Below are positions 1-58,350 of a stretch of 64,000 nucleotides of DNA, piece by piece. The position numbers were made by a program, and so were the translations under genes. The stretch is from Dromiciops gliroides (lineage: Eukaryota; Chordata; Mammalia; Microbiotheria; Microbiotheriidae). The stretch is taken from the NCBI RefSeq assembly GCF_019393635.1, contig NC_057861.1, positions 190,976,026 to 191,040,025 of the forward strand. The letters are read 5' to 3'. The notes under the pieces are model-generated. The model was not told the origin of the DNA. It did not search any database and was given only the letters and a program-made list of their open reading frames with translations. How positions within the stretch are numbered: the stretch's first letter is position 1; every line of letters starts with the position of its first letter.

Positions 1-32
1 TTCAGTTTACTATGAAAAATGAGGGAGACACA

Positions 33-180
33 GGGGGCAGCTAGGTGGCACAGTGGATAAAGCACTGGCCCTGGATTCAGGAGGACCTGAGTTCAAATCT
101 GACCTCAGACACTTGACACTTACCAGCTGTGTGACCCTGGGCAAGTCATTTAACCCTCATTACCCAGCCAGTAATAATAA
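33..180 (+). mobile_element. CORE-SINE (WSINE1/Mar1-like), full length
   Basis: tRNA-derived head (GGGGCAGCTAGGTGGCACAG), CORE segment and a tail ending near TACCCAGCC. It is flanked by the perfect 10-bp duplication GGGAGACACA at 23-32 and 181-190, so it is a complete retroposed insertion. Short tail, family-B type (CTTGACACTTAC). Confidence 0.9.
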
Positions 181-190
181 GGGAGACACA

Positions 191-790
191 GATGACACTT
201 AAGTTGCTTCTATCTCTAAATATGATTCGTTGAGCATTTTATGTATAATCATACATACTTTGGGACATAATACTTATTCATACAAAGAGAAATTAACACT
301 AAACTTTAAATGCTACCCATTGATTTTTACAAAATACATAGATGCTTGTCTCTACCCAGAGGATTCCCATATATAGAGATTGAAGACATAACATTCCTAA
401 ATTCTACTTGATCCCTCATGAACAAGTGCCTGCTTGTCAGATCTAGTCAACAACTCAAACTCAACATGTTAATAACACACGCACACCCCAAACCTCTACC
501 CTCCTTCACATTTTAAGTCTGTTGAAATAAGAGTTATATACCATCATCCTCTCACTTTTGCAAAGTCTTAATATACTCCTGCATGCCTTATATCTGTACC
601 CTTCTCTCAGCCAGGTTATCACCAGTCTCCTAGTCTTCCCATGTTTTGAAGATCAAAAGAGAGAACCTACGCAAAGCCAAAACGTTATATAGATGTTAGC
701 TGTCATATCCAAACGCTTCTCTTCCACATAGCTGCCAGAGTAATTTTCCCAAGATCTGACCTCCTCTTGCTTCCTATAGAGTGTATTGAT
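191..790. other. no recognisable feature
   Basis: AT-rich sequence without a convincing exon or recent repeat. It probably lies in an upstream BLOC1S4 intron. The part around 720-770 has a faint old-repeat flavour that I could not assign. Confidence 0.4.
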
Positions 791-894
791 CATAGAATTT
801 AGAACTGGTAGGGAGATGAATTGCTAGACTCAAAGGATACAAAGGCAAACTATAACAATGTCCATAGAGGGGAAAGGGAAGAGAGGGAATAAGA

Positions 895-1040
895 GTGTGG
901 AAGAGATCTTGGAGATCATCTAGTCAACCCTATCCTTTTGTAGATAAGAAAATGGGGGCCCAGCTTGCCCAGAATTACACAAGCAGTAAACAGCTAGGAT
1001 TTGAACTTCAAATCCAGTCCTTTTTCTACTCAGTTCTTAG
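895..1040 (-). repeat. old MIR-type SINE fragment
   Basis: Reads like the reverse complement of a MIR/CORE element: a GAGATCATCTAGTCAACCCT-type stretch, then AAGAAAATGGGGGCCCAG, an eroded TTGCCCAGAATTACAC and AGGATTTGAACTTCAAATCC. It is strongly diverged. The block 790-895 may be part of the same repeat. Confidence 0.6.
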
Positions 1041-1655
1041 TGAATCCAGTCTTTCTCAGATCACAGCTTTTCTTAGACGCTCACAAACCAACTCTAATAA
1101 TAAGCCTCTTGATGAGGCTTGAGTTCAATTTTTTTTTGTTCTGGATCCATAATTTCATCAGTGGAGTAAATTCCTATCACACTGCATATCAACAATTCAT
1201 CTGTAACTTAAGGTCTTAGAATTCCTAGGAGTACAAGGGCAAAATTACCAGTCTGTGATTTTGAGAATCTATTAACCATTTATCTTCTTCTCATGATTTC
1301 TCAAAAGTTACCAACAGTGGTTTTGAGGTGATACAGTGATTCTTTCACTGCTCCAGGATGTAATTTCTCTGGGCCTGGGTAATTAGCAAAGTTTGACCCG
1401 CCTTCTTTGGTAATAAGGTTAATTTTCCATTCCTACCATTTGCACTAGTTTTGTGGGGTTTTTTTCCGTACTAGGAGCCCTGCAATTGCTTCTCATTGTT
1501 ACCCTTCTGTATCAGGTTCAGATCCTGAATTAGGGTTTCAAACTTGTGAGCTCACCTACCTATAAGAATAGGGTCTAATATAGGTCCCCTTTCCTCCATT
1601 ACTCATCATATACCCTGCCTTCCCTCCCTTTCTGCCATGTCTTACCTTCAGTCCT
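1041..1655. other. no recognisable feature
   Basis: AT-rich sequence. No exon with splice sites resembling the N-terminal part of BLOC1S4 was found, and no recent repeat. Confidence 0.4.
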
Positions 1656-1890
1656 TCTTTGGCCATATTTGTGACCCCATTTGGGGTTTTCTTGGCAAAG
1701 ATACTGGAGTGATTTGCCATTTCTTTCTCCAGCCCATTTTACAGATGAGGAACTAAGGCAAACAGGGTTAAGTGACTTGCCCAGGGTTGAACAACTAGTA
1801 AATGTCCCAAATTTGAGCTCAGATAGATGAGTCTTCCTGATTCTAAGTGCAGTGTTCTGTCCACTATGCTACCTAGTTATACCTCCCTAT
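1656..1890 (-). mobile_element. long Mar1-type SINE
   Basis: Reverse-oriented element with the long form of the tail (GGGGTTTTCTTGGCAAAGAT, then GATTTGCCATTTCTTTCTCC), the core (GTTAAGTGACTTGCCCAGGG) and an eroded tRNA head (CACTATGCTACCTAGTTA). This is older and longer than the abundant short SINE. Confidence 0.75.
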
Positions 1891-2389
1891 TTTACATGCA
1901 TGCAATTTTCCCATGCCTAGAAAAAGACTTTTATTCTCTAAAGTTGATCCTCTTTAAAGGTGACATCTGTAAGTTTTCTCACTAAAGTAGTTTGCCTAAT
2001 AGCCAAGATATATTTATATCTAGTTATAACTATATAGTGAACATCATCACACACCATGTGAACACACCATGACCTAAGTATCCTTTCAGTACCATACAAA
2101 CTATACTTGTGCTTTACTCTATAGCCTCTTTGTAGTATTGATGATGTCTTCAACATCAGTGGGCCAGTATGCTTGTAAGTCTAGAAGAAAAGAGAGAGAA
2201 TGTGGTTTTGGTCCTTAATATTTTTGGAATCCTGAAAATCTACTCATTTGCCATATCAGAAAGCTAAATACAACTAATAAACTGAGAAATATACTAATTA
2301 AGTTTTTTAAATTAATGATTATTTTTTGCTACTTACTATGTGAAATATAGACTTAATTTCATCAGTACAGTACCCATGATATACCTTAA
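1891..2389. other. no recognisable feature
   Basis: AT-rich, presumed intronic sequence with no repeat or exon that I can support. Confidence 0.4.
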
Positions 2390-2400
2390 GATTAGCTACC

Positions 2401-2545
2401 TGGGCAGCTAGGTAGCGCAGTGGATAGAGCACCGGCCCAGGATTTAGGAGGACCTAAATTCAAATCTAGCCTCAGACACTTAACACTTACTGGCTGTGTG
2501 ACCCTAGGCAAGTCACTTAACCCCAATTGCCTCACCAAAAAAAAG
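2401..2545 (+). mobile_element. CORE-SINE, full length
   Basis: Head TGGGCAGCTAGGTAGCGCAG through CCCCAATTGCCTCACC and an A tail. Flanked by the 11-bp duplication GATTAGCTACC (2390-2400 and 2546-2556). Family-A tail. Confidence 0.92.
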
Positions 2546-2687
2546 GATTAGCTACCACATGATGAATTTTCTTTTTTAATCACTTAAGGCACAGAGGAGT
2601 TGTGATCTCTCAATGGAGGGCACTCCACATTAATGAAAAATACAAATCACTTGAATGGAATAACAGTATTAAAAATTAGTATAAATA

Positions 2688-2834
2688 GGGGCAGCTAGGT
2701 GGCACAGTGGATAGAGCACTGGCCCTGGATTTAGGAGGACCTGAGTTCAAATCCAGCCTCCGACACTTGACACTTACTAGCTGTGTGACCCTGGGCAAGT
2801 CACTTAACCCCAATTGCCTCACTAAAAAAAAAAA
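2688..2834 (+). mobile_element. CORE-SINE, full length
   Basis: Complete element ending CCCCAATTGCCTCACT plus A tail. Flanked by near-identical AAAAATTAGTATAAATA (left) and AAAAATTTAGTATAAATA (right). It lies 166 bases before the first visible BLOC1S4 exon. Confidence 0.92.
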
Positions 2835-3000
2835 ATTTAGTATAAATAAACTGTGGGAAAATAAGTAATTTTCACTGAGTTTTCCTTTCAGATAATCATT
2901 TGATCAGAAAGTTGCCCCCAAAATTTATTGATCCTTCAGTAAACTCATGTATGTCAATTAGAAATACACTGTAGTAAAACTTTCTATTTTTGTGTTACAG

Positions 3001-3072
3001 ATAGAAGCATTAGACAGGAGTCTTGAAGATCTACTAACTAGAGTTGATGAATTTGTTGGAATGCTAGATATG
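3001..3072 (+). CDS. BLOC1S4: BLOC1S4 internal exon a (24 codons)
   Basis: Acceptor TTTTTGTGTTACAG precedes 3001 and donor GTATGT starts at 3073. It encodes IEALDRSLEDLL followed by TRVDEFVGMLDM. Phase 0 at both ends. Confidence 0.93.
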
Positions 3073-6000
3073 GTATGTTTTGGCTGAACTCATTTTGCTG
3101 TTCTTTAAATGTTTATGAATATGCACCTGGAACCATAGTGCTCTAAATCAAGAGCATCCCATTCTTGAAGGCATTGTTTAATGTTTTAAGTGCTCTATTC
3201 TACTAGTTCGCCTGTGTTTACTTAGGTAATAGCTCTCCAATACAATATAAACTACTTTTGAGAGCAAAAATTGTCTCTTTTGTCTTTGTATCACCAGGAC
3301 TCAGTACAGTGCCTTATAAAGAGTGAGAAATTCAGCAATACAATGGTCCAAGATAGGTCCAAAGGCCTCATGATGGAAAATGCTCTCCAAATCCAGAAAA
3401 AAAAGAACTATGGGGCAGCTAGGTGACGCAATGGATAGAGCACTGGCCCTGGAGTCAGGAGTACCTGAGTTCAAATCCGGCCTCAGACACTTAACACATA
3501 CTAGCTGTGTGACCCTGGGCAAGTCACTTAACCCCAATTGCCTCACTTAAAAAAAAAAAAAGAACTATGGAATCTAGATGCAGATTGAATCATACCATTT
3601 CTCTTGTTTTGTTTTTCTTTTTTGAGGTTTTTCCTTTGGCTCTGATTCTTCTTTCACAGCATGACTAATGCAGAAATGTTTAATGTGATTGTACATATAT
3701 AACCTATATTGGGTTGCTTGCTGTCTTAGGGAGGGGAGAGGAGAAAAATGTGAAACTAGAAATCTTATAAAAACAAATCTTGAAAACTATCTCTACATGT
3801 AACTGGAAAATAATAAAATACTTTTATGAAAAAAAGTGAGAAATTAAGATTTTTAAATGGCATCAAAGAAATATATTAACGGAAAGGAATATATAGGCCA
3901 ACCATGTAATAAGAGATTACAGCCCGTGTATTGGACTAGTACCTGTGGAGACCTAGAGAAAAGTGTCAGCTCTCCACTTTCACTAGCACATTGGAGGTGT
4001 ACTCCCTGAAGAAGTAGTGCTGGAATGCCACAGTATGAGGTGTGGATAGGTTGTAATATATATTATTGGTGAGGAATGAAAACACAGATTAACTAAAGTA
4101 ATGGAAACTCAACATATATATGCGGTTTAATAATGGTGTTCATATTTTCTCTAATGTTATTTATGGTGAAGTAAAACTTTAACATCATATTTTATTTTAG
4201 ATTCGAAGTGACTCTTCACAAGTAGTCAATGAAAGTGTACCTCATATTCACACAAAAGCCACTGAAATGAGTGAGATATATAGAAAGATTGACAAATTGG
4301 AGGTAAGTAGTAACTTTTGAAAGTACATATAGGGGATAGCTAGGTGGCACAGTGAATAAAGCACCGGCCCTGGATTCAGGAGGACCTGAGTTCAAATCTG
4401 ATCTCAGACACTTGACACTAGCTGTGTGACCCTGGGCAAGTCACTTAACCCCCACTGCCCCACACACACAAAAAAACCCCCCAAAACCACCCCCTAAAAA
4501 AAGTACATATAATTTTTTTTAAGTACATATAATAGAAATTAATTTCTGAAGGCAGTATCAACTTTCCACTGTTTAATTTATTGATAGGTTTGCATTTTAT
4601 TGAAAATTTAGTTGTCTTAAACTACTTTTCATTTGTTTATCTTTATATTAGTACAAACTTGGTCTCAGCTAAGACAACTAATATATATAGCATTAGTATA
4701 CAACCAGTAATAATCAATAAACATATTCAAACTTTGACATATGGATAAAATGAGTTATAATAAACTTCAAAGGTACATTTCATTGTTTAGAAATTTCATT
4801 ATCCTAGGACTTATCAAGGATACATGTTGTTCATACCCTAACAGCAGTTTCCTTAAGACAGTACCTAAAACCAGCAGTATAGGTAGCATAGTTATAACTT
4901 TTTTAAAATGTGTATTGACTGAAAAAACTAAAAAAGGAGGTCTAAATTTAACTATTGGAATTAAGAATAAAGGACAACATCCTAGAGATGTTAATGGTGG
5001 GAATAGTCAAATTTGGTGAGTGCCTGAAAACAAATAGGAAATAAGATGGCTTTTTACTCCCAAAAGAAATCAATAAGAAAAAATGGTTTAACTTAAACTT
5101 TCTTTTTTTTGAGGGGAGAGGGGGGGCAATGAGGGTTAAGGGACTTGCCCAAGGTCACTGATGCCAGATTTGAACTCAGGACATCCTGAATCCAGGGCTG
5201 GTGCTTTATTCACTGTGCCACCTAGCTGCCCAAGAGCTTAACTTTTACTAGATTCTTCATGATATGGTCACTAAATGTTTAGAAATCCTGGAAAATACTG
5301 AGATGGGGACAGAAAACAGTTTGCAGGTTAAAAAACTGAAGATTCGTTTTCTTAATTGGATATGAAATAAAATTTCTCAGGCTATACATAGTGAGTCAAA
5401 CTACAGACTCTAAAACCATTAATACTACTTTAATTTAACTTGTTTTATGGGTGACTTAATGTTCTTGTTGGGACTTCATTAAAGCTAGTTTTCAGTATTA
5501 ATCAGGTTTTTTGTGTATATTTCTAAGAGCCAGAGAAAAGTATAGGTGAAATTAGGCTAGGCAGGATCTTATTTTGTCATAAAAAATCAGGGTTTAGCTT
5601 TCAAAAATGTTTAACAAGATATTAATTAGATAATATAATAAATTAGCACCACTTATTAAACTGTCCTATCTTTGGTCATTCAACACAAATTAACATGAAA
5701 ATTATATACAAACATTTATGTAAATATGATTGGCAGATAGGAGAATTTTGTATTCTTTCATGTAAACTTGTTAGTTTCTAACATTTTTAACTTTGACAGT
5801 CACCTGTTGAATTGGACCACACACATAAGATAATACTGAAAAATCTTCTGTTTGTTTTCACATTTTTCTTTCTTTCCTACCTAGGCCTTTGTTAAAATGA
5901 TTGGAAATTGTGTGACTAGAATGGAGGAGCAGGTGACAAAAGCAGAAGCAGAACTTGGGACATTCCCCAACACATTAAAGAAACTTTTGCACACAATTAA

Positions 6001-6502
6001 TGTGCCATCCTTCCTTAATGTAAGTTATTAATCTGAGTAGTTTATCTTTGTTGTATATAGTTTCTTAGAAGCTCACAGTAGATTAAATTATAGACATAAA
6101 TTTGTACTCAAGGAAATTCTGTACCACTAGCTGGTTCCTTATACTAATGAAATCATTGGTGTGGGTGGGAAGAAACTTTAAAAGTATAGAATTAAGTAAC
6201 TGCTTAGCTTCTCTGGCTGAAAAGAGAACATGTAAGAGATATTTTAAACTGTGACAGATAATTTTTTTAAAAGCAAGACCAAAGATAAATCTGAAATTTG
6301 AAGGATAATGAACAATTGGGACAAAAGCTTTTCTTAAAAAGAGACCATGTTACTTTGTTCTATGATATGTATAATTTTTCTTTTTTACAATTATTTCCAG
6401 AAATCATATTCCACAAAGCAACAACAAACTGTCTATGAACCTCCTATCCTTTTTAGGACAGAAGACTATTTTCCTTGTTGCAAAGAAGGACCTCAGGCAT
6501 GA
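3001..6502 (+). CDS. BLOC1S4: BLOC1S4 (cappuccino), BLOC-1 subunit 4; C-terminal four exons
   Basis: Four exons (3001-3072, 4201-4302, 5885-6019, 6401-6502) join in frame to 136 residues ending at TGA 6500-6502. From memory of the human protein (217 residues), they correspond to its C-terminal 136, beginning at the segment around VEALDASLEDLLTRVDEF. The visible part has helical, coiled-coil-like stretches (LEDLLTRVDEFVGMLDM; AFVKMI...RMEEQVTKAEAELGTFP), the conserved LLHTINVPS and the near-C-terminal FRTEDYFPCC. BLOC-1 is a cytosolic complex in endosome-to-lysosome-related-organelle traffic (melanosomes, platelet granules). Every intron is phase 0 with GT..AG ends, and no stop or frameshift is seen, so the gene looks functional. 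The 5' exon(s), probably GC-rich, lie left of the window. Unlike the intronless human gene, this copy is split. It converges on ADNP2 about 20 kb away. Confidence 0.93.
3240..3335 (+). repeat. L2-type LINE fragment
   Basis: Resembles the 3' part of L2: AAACTACTTTTGAGAGCAAA, then TCTTTTGTCTTTGTATCACC and CAGTACAGTGCCTTATAAAG. Eroded and intronic. Confidence 0.55.
3336..3832 (+). mobile_element. L1/HAL1 3' end, 5'-truncated
   Basis: Marsupial-type L1 3' UTR: CAAATCCAGAAAAA..AGAACTATGGA, a G-rich block (GGGAGGGGAGAGG) and the terminal CTACATGTAACTGGAAAATA with AATAAAATAC. Interrupted by a SINE at 3412-3560. Lies in the intron between exons a and b. Confidence 0.8.
3412..3560 (+). mobile_element. 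CORE-SINE inside L1 3' end
   Basis: Full-length family-A copy (GAGTCAGGAGTACC, CTTAACACATAC, CCCCAATTGCCTCACTT). The target AAGAACTATGG of the L1 is duplicated on both sides, so the SINE is younger than that L1. Confidence 0.92.
4201..4302 (+). CDS. BLOC1S4: BLOC1S4 internal exon b (34 codons)
   Basis: Acceptor TATTTTATTTTAG ends at 4200 and donor GTAAGT starts at 4303. Encodes IRSDSSQVVNESVPHIH, then TKATEMSEIYRKIDKLE. Phase 0 at both ends. Confidence 0.93.
4332..4500 (+). mobile_element. CORE-SINE with C/A-rich tail
   Basis: Head GGGGATAGCTAGGTGGCACA; tail is a mixed CACACACAAAAAAACCCCCC stretch. The duplication AAGTACATATA is at 4321-4331 and 4501-4511, and a third AAGTACATATAAT follows at 4521, suggesting a later local duplication. 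Confidence 0.88.
5110..5232 (-). mobile_element. CORE-SINE, internally deleted
   Basis: Reverse copy beginning with a G-rich tail (GGGGAGAGGGGGGGCAATGA) and ending CACTGTGCCACCTAGCTGCC. The segment for AGCTAGTAAGTGTCAAGTGT is missing. Confidence 0.85.
5233..5884. other. BLOC1S4 intron, no repeat recognised
   Basis: AT-rich sequence ending with the polypyrimidine tract TTTTTCTTTCTTTCCTACCTAG that serves exon c. Confidence 0.6.
5885..6019 (+). CDS. BLOC1S4: BLOC1S4 internal exon c (45 codons)
   Basis: Acceptor CTTTCCTACCTAG ends at 5884 and donor GTAAGT starts at 6020. Contains RMEEQVTKAEAELGTFP and KKLLHTINVPSFLN. This is the best-conserved stretch relative to the human protein. Phase 0 at both ends. 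Confidence 0.94.
6401..6502 (+). CDS. BLOC1S4: BLOC1S4 terminal coding exon d (33 codons + stop)
   Basis: Acceptor TTTTTTACAATTATTTCCAG ends at 6400; stop TGA at 6500-6502. Encodes KSYSTKQQQTVYEPP, then ILFRTEDYFPCCKEGPQA. The FRTEDYFPCC signature matches the human C terminus. A different frame is also open here (6435-6707) but is a shadow. Confidence 0.94.
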   Translation, partial: KSYSTKQQQTVYEPPILFRTEDYFPCCKEGPQA

Positions 6503-7240
6503 TATTGCACAATACAACTACTTAGGAAAAGGCTTATATCAAAGGACAAGTGCTTATGTTGAAGATATTATTGTTATACATATCTACTATTTAGTATATT
6601 TAAAGTTTTGTGTATATTCAACAGGCAATATTTTAAAACAGTATTTTTCATTTTGTGCAGAATGCATAGCTTCCACGTCCTCCAAATCTAAACTAAAATC
6701 CATTTAAATGGGGAGTAAAATGAGTAAACATTTCCTTATAATGATCAAAATTTCTACATTTACATTTATACCATCCTTGCATGTCAACAGTATTACCTTT
6801 AAGACTTACCTTCAAAAGGTATTAAAGGAAAAACTACTGAAGCATTAAAAAGCATTATTTATTAATGTTTGACAGTCTTCCTATAGTTTATTTTTTTGAA
6901 TGAACTGTAAATTAACATAAGTTAGGCTTTATACATTTTGAACTGTAAACTATGCAAGACGACTTGTAATTAATTTTGAAAATTATATTTAAACAGCTAT
7001 AGCTATAATCTTTAGTTTGTAAGAGACTGTTTACACAGTTTGACTTAAAATTTAAATTTAATTAAAATTGAATTATATGAATAGATTTTGTCTTGAAGTG
7101 CTATTGAGCAAGAACACAGAAAAGTGTTTTTATAGAAGTTTTGTTTTATCTTGGATACAGATTTCCATCTCAGTGACTTCCATAAAAGGTTTATGTGAAA
7201 AAAATTATACAGTTTAACTCAGCTAATGTTTTAGTAAAAT
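6503..7240 (+). other. BLOC1S4: probable BLOC1S4 3' UTR
   Basis: Repeat-free AT-rich sequence directly after the stop codon. No canonical AATAAA is seen. ATTAAA variants occur at 6831, 6844 and 7061, so the true end of the transcript is uncertain. Confidence 0.4.
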
Positions 7241-7440
7241 CTTATGATTCTTCCTAGTCAAAGGATCATAGAAACATTAGAAAATTCAAAAGGACCATGG
7301 TGGTCTGGTCCCCATCCCTTCAACAAAGAAACAACTTCACTGACCTTCAAAGTAACTAAAGTCACAAAACCAGTTAGTGGAAGTATGAGTAACAGAAAAA
7401 ATCTGTACCTTCTACTTCATAAAGAGTAAGTTCTACACTC

Positions 7441-7600
7441 TTAAAATGAGACTGAAGAGTTGGAAGACACTAACTTCCTCAAAGATGAGGAAATGGAGGC
7501 ACAGCAGTGTTGTGACTCACCAAAGGCCTTACAAGTAGTAAGTAGCAGAATATTCTGATTCCAGATCCAGTCTTGTGCTACATCATACCTTTTTTTAAAA
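7441..7600 (-). repeat. MIR-type SINE
   Basis: Contains GATGAGGAAATGGAGGCACAG followed by an eroded TGTGACTCACCAAAGGC and AAGTAGTAAGTAGCAGAATA: a reverse-oriented MIR core. Confidence 0.7.
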
Positions 7601-8889
7601 AAATCATAGCTTTTCAATGGACTTTCCCGTGTTTACAAGAGGGACCTCCTTTTCAACACCTAAGAGATGCATTCCTTTCTATATGATAGATTTCAGCTTC
7701 CATTTCAACACTTGTTCTGCTCTTCAGTGAAGAGGAAAAATAGGTACCGGGGTCCATTCTAGATTCCTTTTTTTTCCCCCAGGTTTCATTTATTTTTTTA
7801 TTTTTATTTTTATTTTTTTTCAACAAACATTTATTTTACTTTCCATTTACATGTAAGGGTAGTTTTCAACATTCATTTTCATAAGATTTAGAGTTCCAAA
7901 TTGTTCTCCCTCCCTTTCCTCCCCCTTCCACAAGCAATCAGGTTATATATGTACAATCCACAAGTGTTCTTTTTATCAGTTCTTTCTATAGCAGTGCATA
8001 GTATGCTTCCTCATTAGTTCCTTGGGATTGTCCTGGATCATTGCACTGCTGAGAGTAGCTAAGTCATTCACAATTACTCATTGAACAATACTGCTGTCAC
8101 TATGCACAATGTCCTCTCAGCTCTGCTCACTTCACTATACATCAATGTTCATTAGTCTTTCCAGGTTTTTTGTGGATCATTCTATTTGTCATTTCCTGTA
8201 GCTCAAGTCCATTCCACTCCAGTCATATAACACAGCTTTTTCCATCATTCCTCAATTGATGGACATTCCCTTGATTCTCAATTCTTAGCCTCCACCAAGA
8301 GTTGCTATAAATATTTTTTTGTACAATTTTTCCCCCTTTTCTCTTTTTCATGATTACTATTGTTAGCTGTTTCCCTTCCATCCTATTCCCTTCCCCATGA
8401 TATTTATTCTATGATCCATCTTCTTTCATCCTATCACTCTTCAAAAGGGATTTGCTTCTGTCTGTCCTCTCCCCGACTCTGCCCTTCTTTCTTTTGCCCC
8501 TCTCTCTTTATCCCCTTCCCCTCCTATTTTCCTGCAGGGTTACTCCACCCAATTGAGTGTGTACATAAGTCCCTCCTTGAGCCAATTCTAGTGAGATTGA
8601 GGTCTTTGAGCCAATTTTAATGAGTGTTAGGCTCATTTACTGCCCAGATTAAATAGATTACTCCACCCAGTTGGGTGTGTGTATTAGTCCCTCCTAGAGG
8701 CAGCTCTAAGGAGTTTAAGATCTTTGAGCCTTTTCTGAGGAGTGTAAAATTCATTTACTGCCCTGCTCCTCTCCCATCTCTTCCCCCACTCCATAAGCCT
8801 TTTCCTATTACTTTCATGTAGGATTTTGCTTCTGCCCTTCCCCCTCTCCCAATGAATTCCCTTCACCCCTCAATTTAACCCTAAAGATG

Positions 8890-9030
8890 TCATCATCTAG
8901 CTAAGTGACACAGTGGACAAATCATCACCCCTGGACCGAGGGGGATTCCAGCCAAAACCTGGCCTCAGACACAAGACAGTCGCCCACTGTACAACCCCAG
9001 GTATGTCCCCCAGCTCCATTTATTTTTTTT
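8890..9030 (+). repeat. degenerate SINE-like segment inside HAL1
   Basis: CTAGCTAAGTGACACAGTGG, then ACAAATCATCACCCCTGGAC and CCTGGCCTCAGACACAAG resemble a decayed tRNA-SINE head and core on the + strand. I see no target-site duplication, so it could be an old insertion or part of this HAL1 subfamily. Confidence 0.45.
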
Positions 9031-9091
9031 TATGGTTCTCTAGGGTCTTGTATTTGAAAGTCAGATTTGCCATTCAGTTCAGGTCTTTTCA

Positions 9092-9970
9092 TCACAAATA
9101 TCTGAAAGTCTTCTTTTTCCGCTGAAAGATAATGCTGAGTTTTGCTGGGTAGGTGATTCTTGGTTGTAATCCCATTTCCTTTGCCCTCTGGAATATCATA
9201 TTCCATGCCCTCTGGTCCTTTAATGTAGAAGCTGCGAGATCTTGTGCTATCTTGACTGGGGTTCCACAGTACTTTTTGGCAGCTTGCAATATTGTCTCCT
9301 TGACCTGAGAGCTCTGGAATTTGGCTATAATATTCCTAGGAGTTTTCTTTTTGGGATCTCTTTCTGGAGGTGATCAGTGGATTCTTTCAATTTCTATTTT
9401 AGCTGCTTCTTCTAGAATTTCAGGGCAGTTTTCCCTGAGAATATCTTGGAAGATGGTATCTAAGCTCTTTCCTTGATCATGGTTTTCAGGTAGACCAATA
9501 ATTTTCAAATGATCTCTCCTGGACCTATTTTCCAGGTCAGCAGTTTTTCCCAGAAGATATTTCACATTGCCCTCTATTTTTTTATTCATTTGGATTTGCT
9601 TTATTGTATCTTGGTTTCTCATAAAGTCACTGGCTTCCATTTGTTCAATCCTAATTCTTAGATAGCTATTTTCATCAGAGAGCTTTTGTACCTCCTTTTC
9701 CATTTGATTTTTCAAGCTGTTGACTTTTTTCTCATGTCTTTCCTGCATCACCCTCATTTCTCTTTCCATTTTTTCCTCTACCTCTCTAATTTTATCTTCA
9801 AAGTCCTTTTTGAGCACCTCTATGGCCTGAGACCAATTTGTATTTTTCTTGGAAGCTTTAGATATAGGGGCCCTGATGTTGACATCTTCCTCTCAGGGTG
9901 CCCCTTGGTCTTCCTTGTTATTGAAGAAACTTTCTATGGTCTTCACCTTTCTCTGTTGGCTCATCTTGCC
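9092..9970 (-). pseudogene. L1/HAL1 ORF1 relict
   Basis: A reverse-strand open stretch of 147 codons (9817-9374) shows the coiled coil (KKDFEDKIREVEEKMEREMR) and the RNA-binding domain motifs NRSRRDHLKIIGLPENHD and ENCPEIL. The C-terminal part is shifted to another frame at 9289-9092 (DLAASTLKDQRAWNMIFQRA). Broken by at least one frame change, so not a working ORF1. Confidence 0.88.
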
Positions 9971-17579: not shown

Positions 17580-19085
17580 AAGGATTCGACTGTCCCACCC
17601 CAGCGGGCAACCAGGAAGAAATCCTGAGTGGCTGAAGGCCCAGGTGGGGTAGGGGAGCAGGGGAGCAGTCTCATGGGAAGCTGAGAACCACACCACAGAA
17701 AGCTTTGCTGGTTGGTTTCTTAGTAAATAAGCCTGAGGTTATCTCCAGACCTGAGAACAGGACAGGTGAGATTAAAACCTGCCACCACCACCCCCAACCC
17801 CAAACACCTGAGACCCTCTGAAACTGAGAACAGGAGCAGAGCTGAGAAGCAGCCCCACCCCCCACCCCCACCCCCCAGGGGAGAGTTTAAAATCAAATGA
17901 AAGTGAGGCCAGGCAGGCTGAGAAGAAGCCCAACCATCGCCTGGGCCACGCTGTAGCTTGAACAGTGTGTCCTAGAAGCAGTGCCACACTTTAAGAAGTA
18001 GTTAAAAGTCAAGAAATAGTAAGCCAGGATGAGCAGGCAGAGAAAGCAGAAGACCATCAAAAACTTCTTTGGGGGTAAGGTAGACCACAATAAAACCTCA
18101 GAAGAAGAAGATAATAACAGGGTCAAAGCTCCAATGTCCAAAGCTTCCAAGAAAAATATGAACTGGTCACAGGCCATGGAATCTCTCAAAAGGGACTCTG
18201 AAGAAAAAGTAGGAGACATAGAAAGAAGATGTAGAGAAAAGGAGGAAAGAATGGAACGAGAAATGAGAGAGATGCAGGAGAGTCATGAGAAAAAAGTCAA
18301 CAGTTTGAAAAGCCAAATGGAAAAGGAGATTAAAAAACTGTCTGATAAAAATAACTGCCTAAGAATTAGGATTGAACAAATGGAAGCTAGTGACCTTATG
18401 AGAAACCAAAACACAGTAAAGCAAATCCAATTGAATAAAAAAATAAAGGGCAATGTGAAATATCTCCTTGGAAAAACAACTGACCTGGAAAATAAATCTA
18501 GGAGAGATAATTTGAAAATCATTGGACTACCTGAAAACCATGAACAAAACAAAAGCTTAGACACCATCCTCCAAGAGACTGTGAGGGAAAATTGCCCTGA
18601 TATTCTAGAAGCAGAAGCTAAAATAGAAATTGAAAGAATCCACCGATTACCTCCTGAAAGAGATCCCAAAAGGAAAACCTCCAGGAATATTATAGCCAAA
18701 TTCCAGAACTCCCAGGTCAAGGAGAAAATACTGCAAGCAGCTAGAAAAAAGGAATTCAAATACTGTGGAGTTCCAATAAGGATAAAGCAAAATCTAGCAG
18801 CTTCTATATTAGACTAAAGGGCATGGAATATGATATTTCAGAGGGCAAGGGAACTGGGACTTCAGCCAAAAATCACGTACCCAGCAAAACAGTATAAACT
18901 TTCAGAAGAAAAAATGGGATTTCAATGAGAAAGAAGTCTTTCAAGCATTTGTGATGAAAAGACCTGAACTGAATAGAAAATTTGACTTTCAAATAGAAGA
19001 CCCTGGAGAAGCATAAAAAGGTAAACAGGAAAAAGACTTCATGAGGGATATTAAAAAGAAGAAGAAACAATTTCTCATGGTCTCA
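17580..19085 (+). mobile_element. HAL1/L1 5' region with near-intact ORF1
   Basis: A GC-rich 5' UTR (C-rich tract 17783-17880) leads into ORF1 at 18029. Sequence after ORF1 (GGCATGGAATATGATATTTC, then AGAAGTCTTTCAAGCATTTG) matches the ORF1-to-spacer region of the other HAL1 copies. It stops near 19085 without ORF2 or a clear 3' end. Confidence 0.78.
18029..18817 (+). CDS. L1/HAL1 ORF1 protein, C-terminally truncated
   Basis: 262 codons from an MSRQRK start. Order: a basic N terminus, a long coiled coil (about residues 55-115, with REKEERMEREMREMQESHEK), the RNA-recognition-like middle domain (SRRDNLKIIGLPENHEQNKS) and the C-terminal domain (RNIIAKFQNSQVKEKIL). ORF1p is an RNA-binding trimer that packages LINE RNA. 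The reading frame stops at ASILD, where related copies continue TLKDQRAWNMIFQRAKE in a shifted frame, so about 30-40 C-terminal residues are lost. It is still the best-preserved retroelement gene in the window. Probably not active. Confidence 0.82.
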   Translation: MSRQRKQKTIKNFFGGKVDHNKTSEEEDNNRVKAPMSKASKKNMNWSQAMESLKRDSEEKVGDIERRCREKEERMEREMREMQESHEKKVNSLKSQMEKEIKKLSDKNNCLRIRIEQMEASDLMRNQNTVKQIQLNKKIKGNVKYLLGKTTDLENKSRRDNLKIIGLPENHEQNKSLDTILQETVRENCPDILEAEAKIEIERIHRLPPERDPKRKTSRNIIAKFQNSQVKEKILQAARKKEFKYCGVPIRIKQNLAASILD

Positions 19086-27782: not shown

Positions 27783-30700
27783 TTACAAAGTTTGTGTTTC
27801 ATATTCAAAGTGTAATCTGTGCTTAACATTTTTCAGTTCTGACATATCAAAACCCAAAAGCACAGAAGGTTTGTAATTTTTTATTGCTCTTAGGCATGTA
27901 TATCTTCTTTTCCCAAAAAAGGATGCAACATCAATTTTCCACACCCACAGAAGGGATGACAGTAGTTCTATCTCTCTTTTGCTAGGATATGGTCTCTTGT
28001 GGAAGTAATCTCTAAGAAACTGCTTTTTCTCTTCATATGAACGGTCTTCATACTTCTGGGGATTTAGTGCCAGAATATGAAGAGCATCATCATTTATTAG
28101 TGGACCTTCAGTCCTGCTTTCATTCTTTTGTTTTTTAGAAGGCACATTCACTGCTTTTTCACAAACAGAAGTGATGTCATTATTTATGACAAGAGGTTCT
28201 TCTCTATCCCTTTGGTCCTCTGCCCCAGAATAAAGATCAGGAAGTTTTCTCTTGACAGGAAAAACAGAATCATGTATCTCACCATTCACTGGTGGTAGTT
28301 CTTTTTCACTAAGAACAGACTGGATCTGAAGATCTGAACTACTAACTTTGGGAGCACTCCTGCATCGTAACAAGTGTACAGTAATTGCTGTCATTGTCAT
28401 TTTCCCAGTATATACCCCACAGCAATGGATGCACTTGAAAGCAGGAGACTTCAAAAATGTATGTACAGTTGGCATGACATGATGTTTTTCCTTTAAATGT
28501 ATTTCATATGTTTCTGTGGTCACAAAAGTACCAAGGCAAAATGGACAGGTACTGCTGCCTTGTTTTCTAGGATTGCTGTGGTCCTCAAGAGTCTGTGGCC
28601 TCACTTTAATATAAATTGGTACAAGTATCTTAGAGTACATCATAGCTAGTACTGCCAAATAGACTTCCCTTTCTCCAGGTTCTTCCTTTGGCAACATGGT
28701 AATGAAATCAATATGAGGAAATATTAAGTCACCATTAGCATCATGATCTAACTGGAAACCTCTGTTGCTGTAATCCACAGATAATCTATTCTTTCCAAGA
28801 TGCGCAGTCCTATTATGATCCGAAAGACTTTTAATATTGTGAAAAGTGCAAGGACAGAATAAGCACCCCAAACCATGCATTAATAAATGATGCATAAGTT
28901 CCTCCTCAGATATGAAGCATTTACAAGAAAGACAGTGAAGAGTTCTGTCTTTCATCCATCTTAAAAACGGTGCACATGCCGCAAGTTTTTCAGGCTCAAG
29001 TTTTTCATCTGATCTTGATCCACCATGTTTATGAGCAACTTCCATGTGCACCTGGTAGACATTAGATGGAAAGAGTTCATTGCAAACTGGGCAGGTTTTC
29101 CACTGTTTAGCTTGTTTGAGACTGGAAGCATGGCTTGTTTCTGGAGTAGATGAAGATGCCTGGACAATCATATTTTGAGAAGTGCTTACCACTACTGGAG
29201 GAGAGGGTGCACCAGCTGGGGAATTAGATATCTGTGTAGCAACACTAGACTGCATGAGCTGAATTGGCATCTGTGGTGGTGTAACATTTGCTACACCACC
29301 AGGTGGTACAGGCAACGTAACTGAAACTGGTGCTAGTGTATATGTAGGTACCCCATTAACTTGTTTCCCTGTTGGTATTAACTGTCTAAGAATAGAGCCT
29401 GCAGTTAGGAAAGTGGCATTTTGGGAGATACTAGGTCTGACTGGCTGATTTACAGGTAGAACACCTGGCTGATTAAGGTGGAGTACTCCAGGTCTCACTG
29501 CCTGGCCAACAGGAAGAACTCCTGACATAACAGACTGATTGAGCTGAAGAACCCCTGATGGTACTGTCTGGCCCATGGGCAGAACACCTGATGGTACTGC
29601 TTGGCTCACAGGGAATACTCCTGATGGAACTGTCTGACCCACAGAGATTATCCCTGGTGGAACTGCTTGGATGACACCTGATGCAACAGGTTGATTAACA
29701 GGAAGCACATTAGGTGCAATGGGTCTATTTATGGGAAGAACTCCAGGCCCAACAGGTCTATTTAAGGGTCCAACAGGCTGATTAAGAGGCAAAAGTCCTG
29801 GGTGAAGGGTTTGGTTCACAGGGAGAACCCCTGCTCCAGACTTACTGACAGATCCAACTGGTTGGTTTAAGGGAAGAACTGTAGGACTCACAGGTTGATT
29901 AAGTGGGAGGCCATGAGAAACAAAAACAGGTTGAGGAACAGATGTCTGAAGAGTAATATTATTCTGGCCCACTGGCAAAGGGCTAGACACAAGAGTTACG
30001 TGTGATTGGGCAGCAGCAGGGGCATTATGAGTAAGAGTCCCAGAGGCACTTGAGGCCACAGTTACTGCCTGTGACTGTACCAGAGTTTGGTTTTGATTAT
30101 TCTGTGGCAAGGCAAGTTGAATACAAGTGGAAGCAGCAGTTGCTAGTGCTTGTGCACTGCTGTTAGTTAAAGGAGACATGGCCATATTTGCAGAAAGTTT
30201 AGGAGCAATGTGCATTTGCTTCAGAAGTCCCGTTTTCTTAATATGTTCTGAAATCACACATCTGAGCCTATTTTCCAGATCTCTGTGTGTGTCTGATGTC
30301 AAAATATGATACATTAAAGCATCCAGGCTGATGGCACCTATATTACATTTTTTACAATAGTACTTGTCAGAAGTTGGAACTGTATTGGCTGTTGAAGTGT
30401 TATCGTTTTTCACTTCATTGGGAATTTCATCAGTTCTCATGCCAAAGTAGGAAGCAATCAAGTAATTAAAATGTGCTATTAGTACATGCTTCTTCATGCT
30501 GTAGTACAAAGTGTCTGTAAAGTGACATTTTAAGCACGTGAAGTTTATCACATCACTCCTGGATGGTTTAGATTCACCCAAAATGTTCATGGTGTAATTC
30601 TGGATTTTCCTATGAGAATGAAACATCCGAAAGTGTTTTTCTACAACTTTGGGCTGAGAAGCAAAAACACATTTTGAGCAAGGAACCACTAGTTCTTGGT

Positions 30701-30803
30701 CAATTTCATCTTCATGATAACGATGCAAATGATTTTTCAATGAAGAAAGTAGTTTTGTTGAATACTTGCACAGACTACAACAGTACGGCTTTGTTCGATA
30801 TCT
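27783..30803 (-). CDS. ADNP2: ADNP2 terminal exon: zinc fingers, repeat region and homeodomain
   Basis: Encodes 1006 residues plus TAA (27785-27783). The exon starts at 30803 after acceptor TTTTTCCTACAG; the upstream ATG at 30858 is intronic. Order, in exon residues: C2H2-like fingers at 9-30, 42-62, 90-111 and 150-173; a tandem repeat (306-456, units like SGVLPVGQAVR); QWKTCPVCNELFPSNVYQVH with fingers at 571-591, 624-643, 647-668, 753-774 and 791-814; then the homeodomain (about 918-985, with LLWVWKIDVASFFGKRR). It ends HRLHFEYETQTL; the human protein (1131 residues), recalled from memory, ends similarly. The vertebrate ADNP family are nuclear proteins; ADNP works with chromatin remodellers, and ADNP2 is less well known. 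The paralogue ADNP is excluded by the repeat region and finger spacing. Confidence 0.96.
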   Translation of the reverse strand, partial: RYRTKPYCCSLCKYSTKLLSSLKNHLHRYHEDEIDQELVVPCSKCVFASQPKVVEKHFRMFHSHRKIQNYTMNILGESKPSRSDVINFTCLKCHFTDTLYYSMKKHVLIAHFNYLIASYFGMRTDEIPNEVKNDNTSTANTVPTSDKYYCKKCNIGAISLDALMYHILTSDTHRDLENRLRCVISEHIKKTGLLKQMHIAPKLSANMAMSPLTNSSAQALATAASTCIQLALPQNNQNQTLVQSQAVTVASSASGTLTHNAPAAAQSHVTLVSSPLPVGQNNITLQTSVPQPVFVSHGLPLNQPVSPTVLPLNQPVGSVSKSGAGVLPVNQTLHPGLLPLNQPVGPLNRPVGPGVLPINRPIAPNVLPVNQPVASGVIQAVPPGIISVGQTVPSGVFPVSQAVPSGVLPMGQTVPSGVLQLNQSVMSGVLPVGQAVRPGVLHLNQPGVLPVNQPVRPSISQNATFLTAGSILRQLIPTGKQVNGVPTYTLAPVSVTLPVPPGGVANVTPPQMPIQLMQSSVATQISNSPAGAPSPPVVVSTSQNMIVQASSSTPETSHASSLKQAKQWKTCPVCNELFPSNVYQVHMEVAHKHGGSRSDEKLEPEKLAACAPFLRWMKDRTLHCLSCKCFISEEELMHHLLMHGLGCLFCPCTFHNIKSLSDHNRTAHLGKNRLSVDYSNRGFQLDHDANGDLIFPHIDFITMLPKEEPGEREVYLAVLAMMYSKILVPIYIKVRPQTLEDHSNPRKQGSSTCPFCLGTFVTTETYEIHLKEKHHVMPTVHTFLKSPAFKCIHCCGVYTGKMTMTAITVHLLRCRSAPKVSSSDLQIQSVLSEKELPPVNGEIHDSVFPVKRKLPDLYSGAEDQRDREEPLVINNDITSVCEKAVNVPSKKQKNESRTEGPLINDDALHILALNPQKYEDRSYEEKKQFLRDYFHKRPYPSKREIELLSSLLWVWKIDVASFFGKRRYTCLRAIKNYKPSVLLGFDMSELKNVKHRLHFEYETQTL
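29436..29888 (-). repeat. ADNP2: 33-bp coding tandem repeat in ADNP2
   Basis: About thirteen degenerate units of roughly eleven codons (VLPLNQPVG, VLPINRPIA, VFPVSQAVP, VLPMGQTVP and similar). The units are diverged, so the array is old. Low-complexity and probably disordered protein. Confidence 0.85.
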
Positions 30804-46360: not shown

Positions 46361-46450
46361 CTTTCTTTTTCCTGAAGACTCCCAAGGGGAAACATCTCCC
46401 CAAGACGTATTGTAAAAATATTTCTCTCCAGGATCATAACTTTTAAGGTC
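46361..46450 (-). CDS. ADNP2: ADNP2 internal coding exon (30 codons)
   Basis: Acceptor CTTTTTACAG ends at 46451 and donor GTATGTATTA begins at 46360; 90 nt, phase 0 at both ends. It encodes DLKSYDPGEKYFYN, then TSWGDVSPWESSGKRK, which joins in frame to RYRTKPYCC of the terminal exon. The human protein, recalled from memory, has the near-identical DLKGFDPGEKYFHNTSWGDV, and the paralogue ADNP has NTTWEDVGLWDP at the same place. The exon encoding the first 36 or so residues (the MFQIP.. start) was searched for on the - strand up to 64000 and not found, so it is presumed to lie outside the window. Confidence 0.94.
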
Positions 46451-56639: not shown

Positions 56640-58350
56640 GAATAAAGTATCACATGCTTAATATTTTAAAGAAACAAGTTGATAAAATACAACACATTCT
56701 AAAAACACTTGAAAGCAGAGGCATAATAAAATGTTTTCCTTAAAATGATAAGCATCTCCCTAAAGCCATCAGCAAGCATTATTTGTAACGGGGATAAACA
56801 AGATGCCTTCCCAATAAGATCAGGGATGAAAGGAGAATGCCCACTGTCACCAATATTATATTGAAAATGTTAGCAATAGCAATTAAGACAAAAAAATTGA
56901 AGAAATCAGAATGGGCAATAAGGGGATAAAAGTTTTTGCAGACAACATGATATATATGGAAAATCCTTAAGATTCAAGTAGGAAGTTAGTAGAAACAGTA
57001 ACTTTAGCAAAAGTAGGAGAATATAAAATAAACCCACTTAAAACAGCATTTCTACACTTCACCAAGAAAACCCTGCAAGAAGAAATAATAAGAGGAATTC
57101 CATTTAATATAACTGTGTACTTGGATAGTATTGACAGTATAAAATATCTAAGAGTATACCTACCAAAACAAGCTCAGGAACTACAGGACTACAGATAAAA
57201 ATAAAGTAGTAAGATAAGAATAAAATAATTATAAAACATTTTTATAATACAAATAAAGTTTGATTTAAATAACTAGAGAAATGCTAATTATTCGTGGGTA
57301 GGCAGAGTCAATAGAATAAAAACTACAATTTTACCTACTTATTATTTTACTGAGTTAGAAAAAATCCATTGGTTCACTGGACATTTTGAAGAACAAAAGG
57401 TTAAGAACAGAAAAGGAATTAATGAAAAAATGTAAATGAAGGAGGTTTGGCAGTACCAGACCTCAAACTACCTAAGACTACCTGGTACTGACTAAGAAAT
57501 AGAAAGGTAGATCACTAGAACAGAGTAAATGTACAATACACAATAGCAAATTATTACAGTAACCTTGTATTTGACAAATGTAGAGATTTAAACTTTTGGA
57601 CTAAGAATTCATTATTTGGTAAAAATCATTAGGAAAGATAGAAAGCCATTTGGGAGATATTGGGCATAGATTAATTTCATGCCTTTTACCAAGATATGGT
57701 CAAAATGGATACATGACCTAGATATAAAGAGACATCTTAAGAAAATTAGAAGAACATGGAACATATTACCTGTCAGAATTATGGTCAGGAGAGGAATTTA
57801 TGAATAAACACGATATACAGAGCTTTGTGAGATATAAAATTAATTCTGATTACGTTAAATTAAAAAGGGTTGTAGCCAATATTAGAAGGAAACAGCAAGC
57901 TAGGAGAAAACTTTATCAAATTTATAAGATTATGAATCATTCCCCAATTGATAAATGGTCAAAGGATATAAATAGGCCATTTTTTGATGAAGAAACCAAA
58001 ACTATAATCATGAAAAAAATGTTCTAAATCATTACTGATTAAAAGGCAAATTAAAACAACTTTAAGCTATCACCTTATATTAGATTGGCTAAAATAATAG
58101 AATGGGTATGACAAATATTGGAGGGGATGTGGAAAAATTGGGATACAGATTCACTGCTGGTGGAACTGTGAAATGATCCAACCATTTTGGAAAGCAATCT
58201 GGAATTATGCCCAGAGATAGAAAACTGTATGTTCCCTCTGACCCAACAATGGAACAATGGAAATTGAGGGGATGCCAATCAATTTAGGGATGGCTAAACT
58301 AATTCTGACATAATTATGATGGAATACTACTATTCTCTACGAAATGAGTT
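56640..58350 (+). pseudogene. L1 ORF2 fragment to 3' region
   Basis: Reverse transcriptase block (GAGAATGCCCACTGTCACCA, TTTTTGCAGACAACATGATA in place of YADD), the downstream segment, and a 75-codon open stretch (DIQSFVRYKINSDYVKLKR) before TCCCCAATTGATAAATGG. Many stops; not coding. Confidence 0.8.

Follow-up and report, generated by a model that had tools for sequence, protein, structure and literature searches.

Replacement of a parental gene by its own retrocopy is an established phenomenon, with 25 human cases cited (PMC5408686; PMC8793726), and a review mentions a further set of 10 orphan retrogenes that partly overlaps with these 25 (PMC5408686). Stronger purifying selection and links to disease have been reported for this class (PMC8793726; PMC5408686). 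Here we studied a stretch of 64,000 nucleotides from the marsupial Dromiciops gliroides (contig NC_057861.1, positions 190,976,026 to 191,040,025, hereafter called the window), in which a BLOC1S4 gene split by introns lies next to ADNP2. BLOC1S4 is a subunit of BLOC-1, which acts in making lysosome-related organelles, and mutation of the mouse gene causes a pigment defect in addition to the platelet phenotype described below. Taken together with data from salmon, frog, mouse and human, this locus makes it probable that human and mouse BLOC1S4 is an orphan retrogene and that the gene in the window descends from its parent.

The BLOC1S4 gene of the window consists of four coding exons on the plus strand, spread over bases 3001-6502, which when joined give 136 codons and a stop. 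The human sequences used for comparison with the window were BLOC1S4 (217 residues), ADNP2, NUTF2, and TXNL4A. The first exon (IEALDRSLEDLLTRVDEFVGMLDM, 3001..3072) has an open frame, an AG acceptor and a GT donor, and matches human residues 81-106 (85% identical, E 7e-9). It is followed by an exon ending in KLE (4201..4302; tblastn, 62% identical, E 3e-9), the exon AFVKMIGN..PSFLN (5885..6019; 72% identical, E 2e-18), and the last coding exon (6401..6502; 61% identical, E 1e-10) with a TGA stop at 6500-6502. The exon lengths of 72, 102, 135, and 102 nt are all divisible by three, so that the three introns (3073..4200, 1128 bp; 4303..5884, 1582 bp; 6020..6400, 381 bp), all with GT..AG borders, are in phase 0. 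The acceptors read ttacag, ttttag, acctag, and ttccag, and the internal donors ATG|gtatgt, GAG|gtaagt, and AAT|gtaagt. An earlier note on this DNA had claimed four exons with GT/AG borders that join into the uninterrupted C-terminal 136 residues of BLOC1S4, and our analysis confirmed this at the same positions. The other two frames of the joined exons contain many stops each, and the third codon positions have a GC content of 29%, which matches the AT-rich surroundings. A motif scan of bases 6503-9500 placed the first AATAAA/ATTAAA hexamer past the stop, a candidate 3' end, at 6821..6826 on the plus strand.

When the human BLOC1S4 sequence was searched against the 64 kb with tblastn, it matched the four exon sites in order, and the next best match had an E value of 3.5; this gap between the four exon matches and all others led us to reject chance exons. 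The joined peptide aligned without gaps to human residues 82-216, with 97 of 135 residues identical (72%, E 9e-77). In human numbering, the first exon of the window starts after residue 81, and its joint with the second exon and the two further joints follow residues 105, 139, and 184, respectively. Over the conserved C-terminal two thirds, the peptide was hence found to be orthologous to BLOC1S4, as judged against the human sequence. Pfam returned 18 weak families and none over the cut-off, the top two being COG6_N (E 0.0045) and BLOC1_2 (E 0.0054, 17.5 bits versus 33.4), which, as an independent test, weighs against the assignment. A PDB search gave no clear relative and three weak matches to unrelated helical proteins (E 0.017-0.086), and among viral contigs a pattern matched in 11 stretches, none of which encoded a relative. 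With the window peptide as tblastn query, the best match outside the four exons had an E value of 0.53, so that the window holds no further BLOC1S4 copy by this search.

Exons for the N terminus (about 80 residues in human) were not recognized in bases 1-3000, either with the human N terminus or among stop-to-stop frames of at least 25 codons in bases 1-3072. The same 3000 bases are depleted in CpG, with observed/expected ratios of 0.08-0.13 per kb. The start of the gene probably lies outside the window, whose edge would cut the gene, and what we see is the 3' two thirds of an intron-containing, probably functional BLOC1S4 gene.

We then asked how long such a structure would persist under neutral decay. 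We simulated substitutions without indels, taking the present sequence as the start (2000 runs per distance). The open frame and all seven splice dinucleotides survived together in 23% of the runs at 0.05 substitutions per site and in 5% at 0.1, and survival dropped to 1.7%, 0.7%, and 0.1% at 0.15, 0.2, and 0.3, respectively. Such low survival at the larger distances makes a long neutral decay of the locus unlikely, while a very recent loss is still compatible with these values. Together with the 72% protein identity to human, the simulation indicates that the locus is probably kept by selection. The open frame and this simulation, which is restricted to substitutions and starts from the present sequence, also led us to discard the idea of an old, decayed pseudogene.

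The neighboring gene was identified as ADNP2 by Pfam, tblastn, and splice borders. Its last exon (27783..30803, minus strand, 1006 codons and a stop) carries an ADNP_N domain (E 1e-69), is preceded by a cctacag acceptor, and is 84% identical over 63 residues to the N-terminal part of human ADNP2. In a tblastn search with human ADNP2, the preceding coding exon (46361..46450, minus strand, 90 nt) matched over 30 residues at 77% identity (E 2.5e-12); it is bordered by a tacag acceptor and a gtatgt donor. The claim that BLOC1S4 stands beside ADNP2 was therefore correct, and the two genes are convergent, their stop codons lying 21,281 bp apart.

To place this arrangement in vertebrate history, we turned to published data from salmon and frog. 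Data on selective sweeps in the Atlantic salmon genome include a table that lists, for the region at 64.70-65.28 Mb of chromosome 14, pard6g, bloc1s4, nutf2, adnp2, txnl4a, pqlc1, kcng2, ctdp1, and five more genes (PMC4982270). We infer that the list follows map order, since the positions of 3 of the 13 chromosome 14 genes (adnp2, cpsf1, and parp10) fit the listed order, as do 3 of the 5 genes in the chromosome 13 row (trpc2, rrm1, and rb1) (PMC4982270). In Xenopus tropicalis, the printed primers for reverse transcription-quantitative PCR imply at least six exons for bloc1s4; the gene is alternatively spliced in morphants, and one primer spans the junction of exon 4 and exon 6 (PMC5861998). 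In one of its two stop-free frames, this primer reads LE|KQTP, which fits the ..KLE| at 4302 and the |K.. at 6401, and for the reverse primer one of three stop-free frames gives DFFPSS, in agreement with EDYFPCC in the last exon of the window. It is thus likely, as far as primer and window letters go, that intron positions are common to the frog gene and the gene in the window. If so, the exon at 5885-6019 would equal the exon skipped in the Xenopus morphants, between frog exons 4 and 6, and if the KLE-ending exon is frog exon 4, two BLOC1S4 exons lie upstream of 3001. The exon at 3001-3072, the first one found inside the window, is then perhaps the third by frog numbering. That the frog gene is multi-exon is independent of this match.

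The ancestral status that the earlier note had assigned to the split gene beside ADNP2 is supported by the salmon list, in which bloc1s4 stands between pard6g and adnp2, and by the splicing of the frog gene. A multi-exon gene at the ancestral, syntenic locus is what we found by its exons, its ADNP2 neighbor, the salmon order, and the frog splicing. Since salmon and window agree in position and frog and window agree in having introns, a spliced BLOC1S4 between PARD6G and ADNP2 appears to be the old state, and a spliced BLOC1S4 beside ADNP2 is probably ancestral to bony vertebrates.

The situation in human and mouse is different. A table of human chromosome 18 genes in a case report gives TXNL4A, RBFA, ADNP2, and PARD6G consecutively, and BLOC1S4 is not among them; ADNP2 (chr18:77866914-77898228, plus strand) is followed, about 17 kb further on, by PARD6G (77915116-78005397, minus strand) (PMC4957311). 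This one published gene table bears out the idea that the human locus lacks an annotated BLOC1S4 between ADNP2 and PARD6G (PMC4957311), so that, for annotated genes and in human, the parent is missing from the syntenic locus. BLOC1S4 is instead located on chromosome 5 in mouse (chr5:36747374-36748679, minus strand, a span of 1306 bp) and on 4p in human (PMC3798288). The reading of the placental gene as an orphan retrogene, as given in the earlier note, is supported in part. Mutation of mouse Bloc1s4 reduces the number of platelet dense granules and prolongs bleeding (PMC3798288).

Retroposition followed by loss of the parent is, in our judgment, the simplest account of these data, because the gene lies elsewhere in mouse and human and is short in mouse, while the old state is a spliced gene at PARD6G-ADNP2. 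In the placental line, a spliced BLOC1S4 mRNA would have been reverse transcribed by L1-type machinery, L1-type elements being the machinery for retrocopies. The retrocopy would have been inserted at the place equivalent to 4p16 and expressed there, and it would then have taken over while the parent at 18q23 decayed. More tentatively, and with rather less confidence than we have in the retrocopy origin itself, we propose that on the placental stem a BLOC-1 subunit gene gave way to a retrocopy of itself and that this has so far gone unrecognized. Human and mouse BLOC1S4 (cappuccino) would then have a promoter different from that of the marsupial, frog, and fish gene and would not be its positional ortholog, and marsupials would keep a working parent beside ADNP2.

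Several observations weigh against this account. The account presupposes that human and mouse BLOC1S4 are intronless, and the 1306-bp span in mouse does no more than fit this. NUTF2 stands between bloc1s4 and adnp2 in the salmon list, and the human sequence found no NUTF2 in the window (best E 0.96). In the salmon passages, positions are printed for neither pard6g nor bloc1s4 (PMC4982270). The agreement of intron positions with frog depends on few residues in a chosen frame, given that 2 of 3 frames of the junction primer and 3 of 3 frames of the reverse primer are free of stops. The nucleotides of the frog junction fit the exon ends of the window poorly (4/8 and 5/13), and better ungapped matches of the same pieces occur elsewhere, namely 6/8 at 4268 (within bases 4201-4303) and 9/13 at 6281, 6419, and 6482 (within bases 6201-6600). 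Finally, the reverse primer at frog exons 1-2 reads SGNAEI or TAEMQR, and TAEMQR would sit in the exon at 4201-4302, which clashes with the exon numbering.

Among the alternatives, the one to which we give the most weight, while still finding it unlikely, is that both copies coexist. The retrocopy could have originated before the marsupial-placental split, in which case an intronless BLOC1S4 would be found elsewhere in the Dromiciops gliroides genome and the placental parent would have been lost late. The visible part of the parent is intact, so that no replacement is seen in this line, and the 64-kb window holds no copy besides the parent. That the locus in the window is a young pseudogene, with another BLOC1S4 copy doing the work, is very improbable. 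The 5' exons and promoter lie outside the window, and 23% of the simulated copies were still open with all splice dinucleotides at a neutral distance of 0.05 substitutions per site, both of which would suit such a pseudogene; an open frame of 136 codons, intact dinucleotides at all seven splice borders, and 72% identity to human are nevertheless unlikely under long neutral decay.

The two remaining alternatives concern the origin of the structural difference rather than the state of the locus. The placental gene might have been relocated by transposition or rearrangement at the DNA level and have lost its introns separately, without passing through a processed mRNA. A single retroposition accounts for relocation and for the loss of all introns together, and human ADNP2 and PARD6G are still adjacent (PMC4957311), so that we give a move of this kind very little credence. 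Least credible of all is that the intronless copy is ancestral and that the locus on the ADNP2 side is a derived copy that gained introns. Nothing speaks for this beyond the existence of the two structures, and it would require at least three phase-0 introns to have been gained, which is very unlikely. Moreover, frog bloc1s4 is already spliced (PMC5861998) and the salmon gene already lies by pard6g and adnp2 (PMC4982270), and on these data we discarded the idea that a derived copy gained introns.

The remainder of the window was surveyed as well. A search with the N-terminal 35 residues of human ADNP2 gave no match in it, so that the first coding part of that gene either sits outside the window, at a distance of more than 17 kb from the next exon, or has diverged; TXNL4A was not found in the window with the human letters either. 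Among 45 open frames of at least 75 codons, nine were scanned with Pfam at E 0.01 and one matched. A remnant of L1 ORF1 was detected at 18023-18814 on the plus strand (Pfam Transposase_22, L1 RBD-like, E 2.4e-14), and a region on the minus strand at 9033-9892 looks similar to it by eye. An open frame of 99 residues at 57728-58024 on the plus strand (..MNKHDIQSFVRYKINSDYVKLKRVVANIRRKQQARRKLYQIYKIMN..) has a protein-like look and gave no Pfam match at E 0.01. Copies of a short interspersed nuclear element (SINE), as seen by eye, are abundant, for example at about 38-165, 2402-2540, 2690-2830, and 3412-3560, the last within the first BLOC1S4 intron of the window, and they have in common cagctaggtggc(a/g)cagtggata and gtgtgaccctgggcaagtca. 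Exact matches to the head cagctaggtggcrcagtggata numbered 7 on the plus strand and 3 on the minus strand, and exact tails were found 15 and 7 times, respectively. We take this element to be a marsupial CORE-SINE. ARAGORN detected no tRNA anywhere in the window, and no Rfam family reached its gathering score there.

As to novelty, the passages of four further papers (PMC13320880, PMC4641402, PMC10668855, and PMC6468360) do not touch on BLOC1S4 structure or origin. Our literature search found no paper that pairs BLOC1S4 with retrogene, single exon, or intronless, or CNO with retrogenes; most subscription journals fell outside its scope, so that this is weak evidence of novelty. The 25 human orphan retrogenes reportedly go back to Ciomborowska et al. 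2013, and BLOC1S4 may already be on that list. If the replacement is real, placental BLOC1S4 shares descent but not position with its counterparts in other vertebrates, and a gene with a platelet phenotype in mouse has had its promoter, its introns, and its splice regulation replaced. This would matter when frog, fish, or marsupial models are used to study BLOC1S4 regulation, and one more disease-linked gene would join the few retrogenes that took the place of their parents.

Overall, BLOC1S4 would be a good example of a known phenomenon, in which a retrocopy replaces its parent. The gene in the window resembles frog bloc1s4 in being spliced (PMC5861998) and salmon bloc1s4 in standing by adnp2 (PMC4982270), whereas nutf2 separates these two genes in the salmon list and NUTF2 was not found in the window. 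In CHMP1B, the orphan retrogene chosen as an example in the review, the parent is still active in rodents (PMC5408686). The BLOC1S4 case would also be similar to the retrogene replacements described for SYCP1 in amphioxus and for the Iroquois-Sowah locus in tetrapods, where a single-exon copy takes over and the multi-exon parent is lost (PMC5803294; PMC8793726), although these concern other genes in other lineages. It shares with the human orphan retrogenes a probable multi-exon parent that outgroups retain at the old locus, a short copy at another place in human and mouse, and a human locus without an annotated parent.

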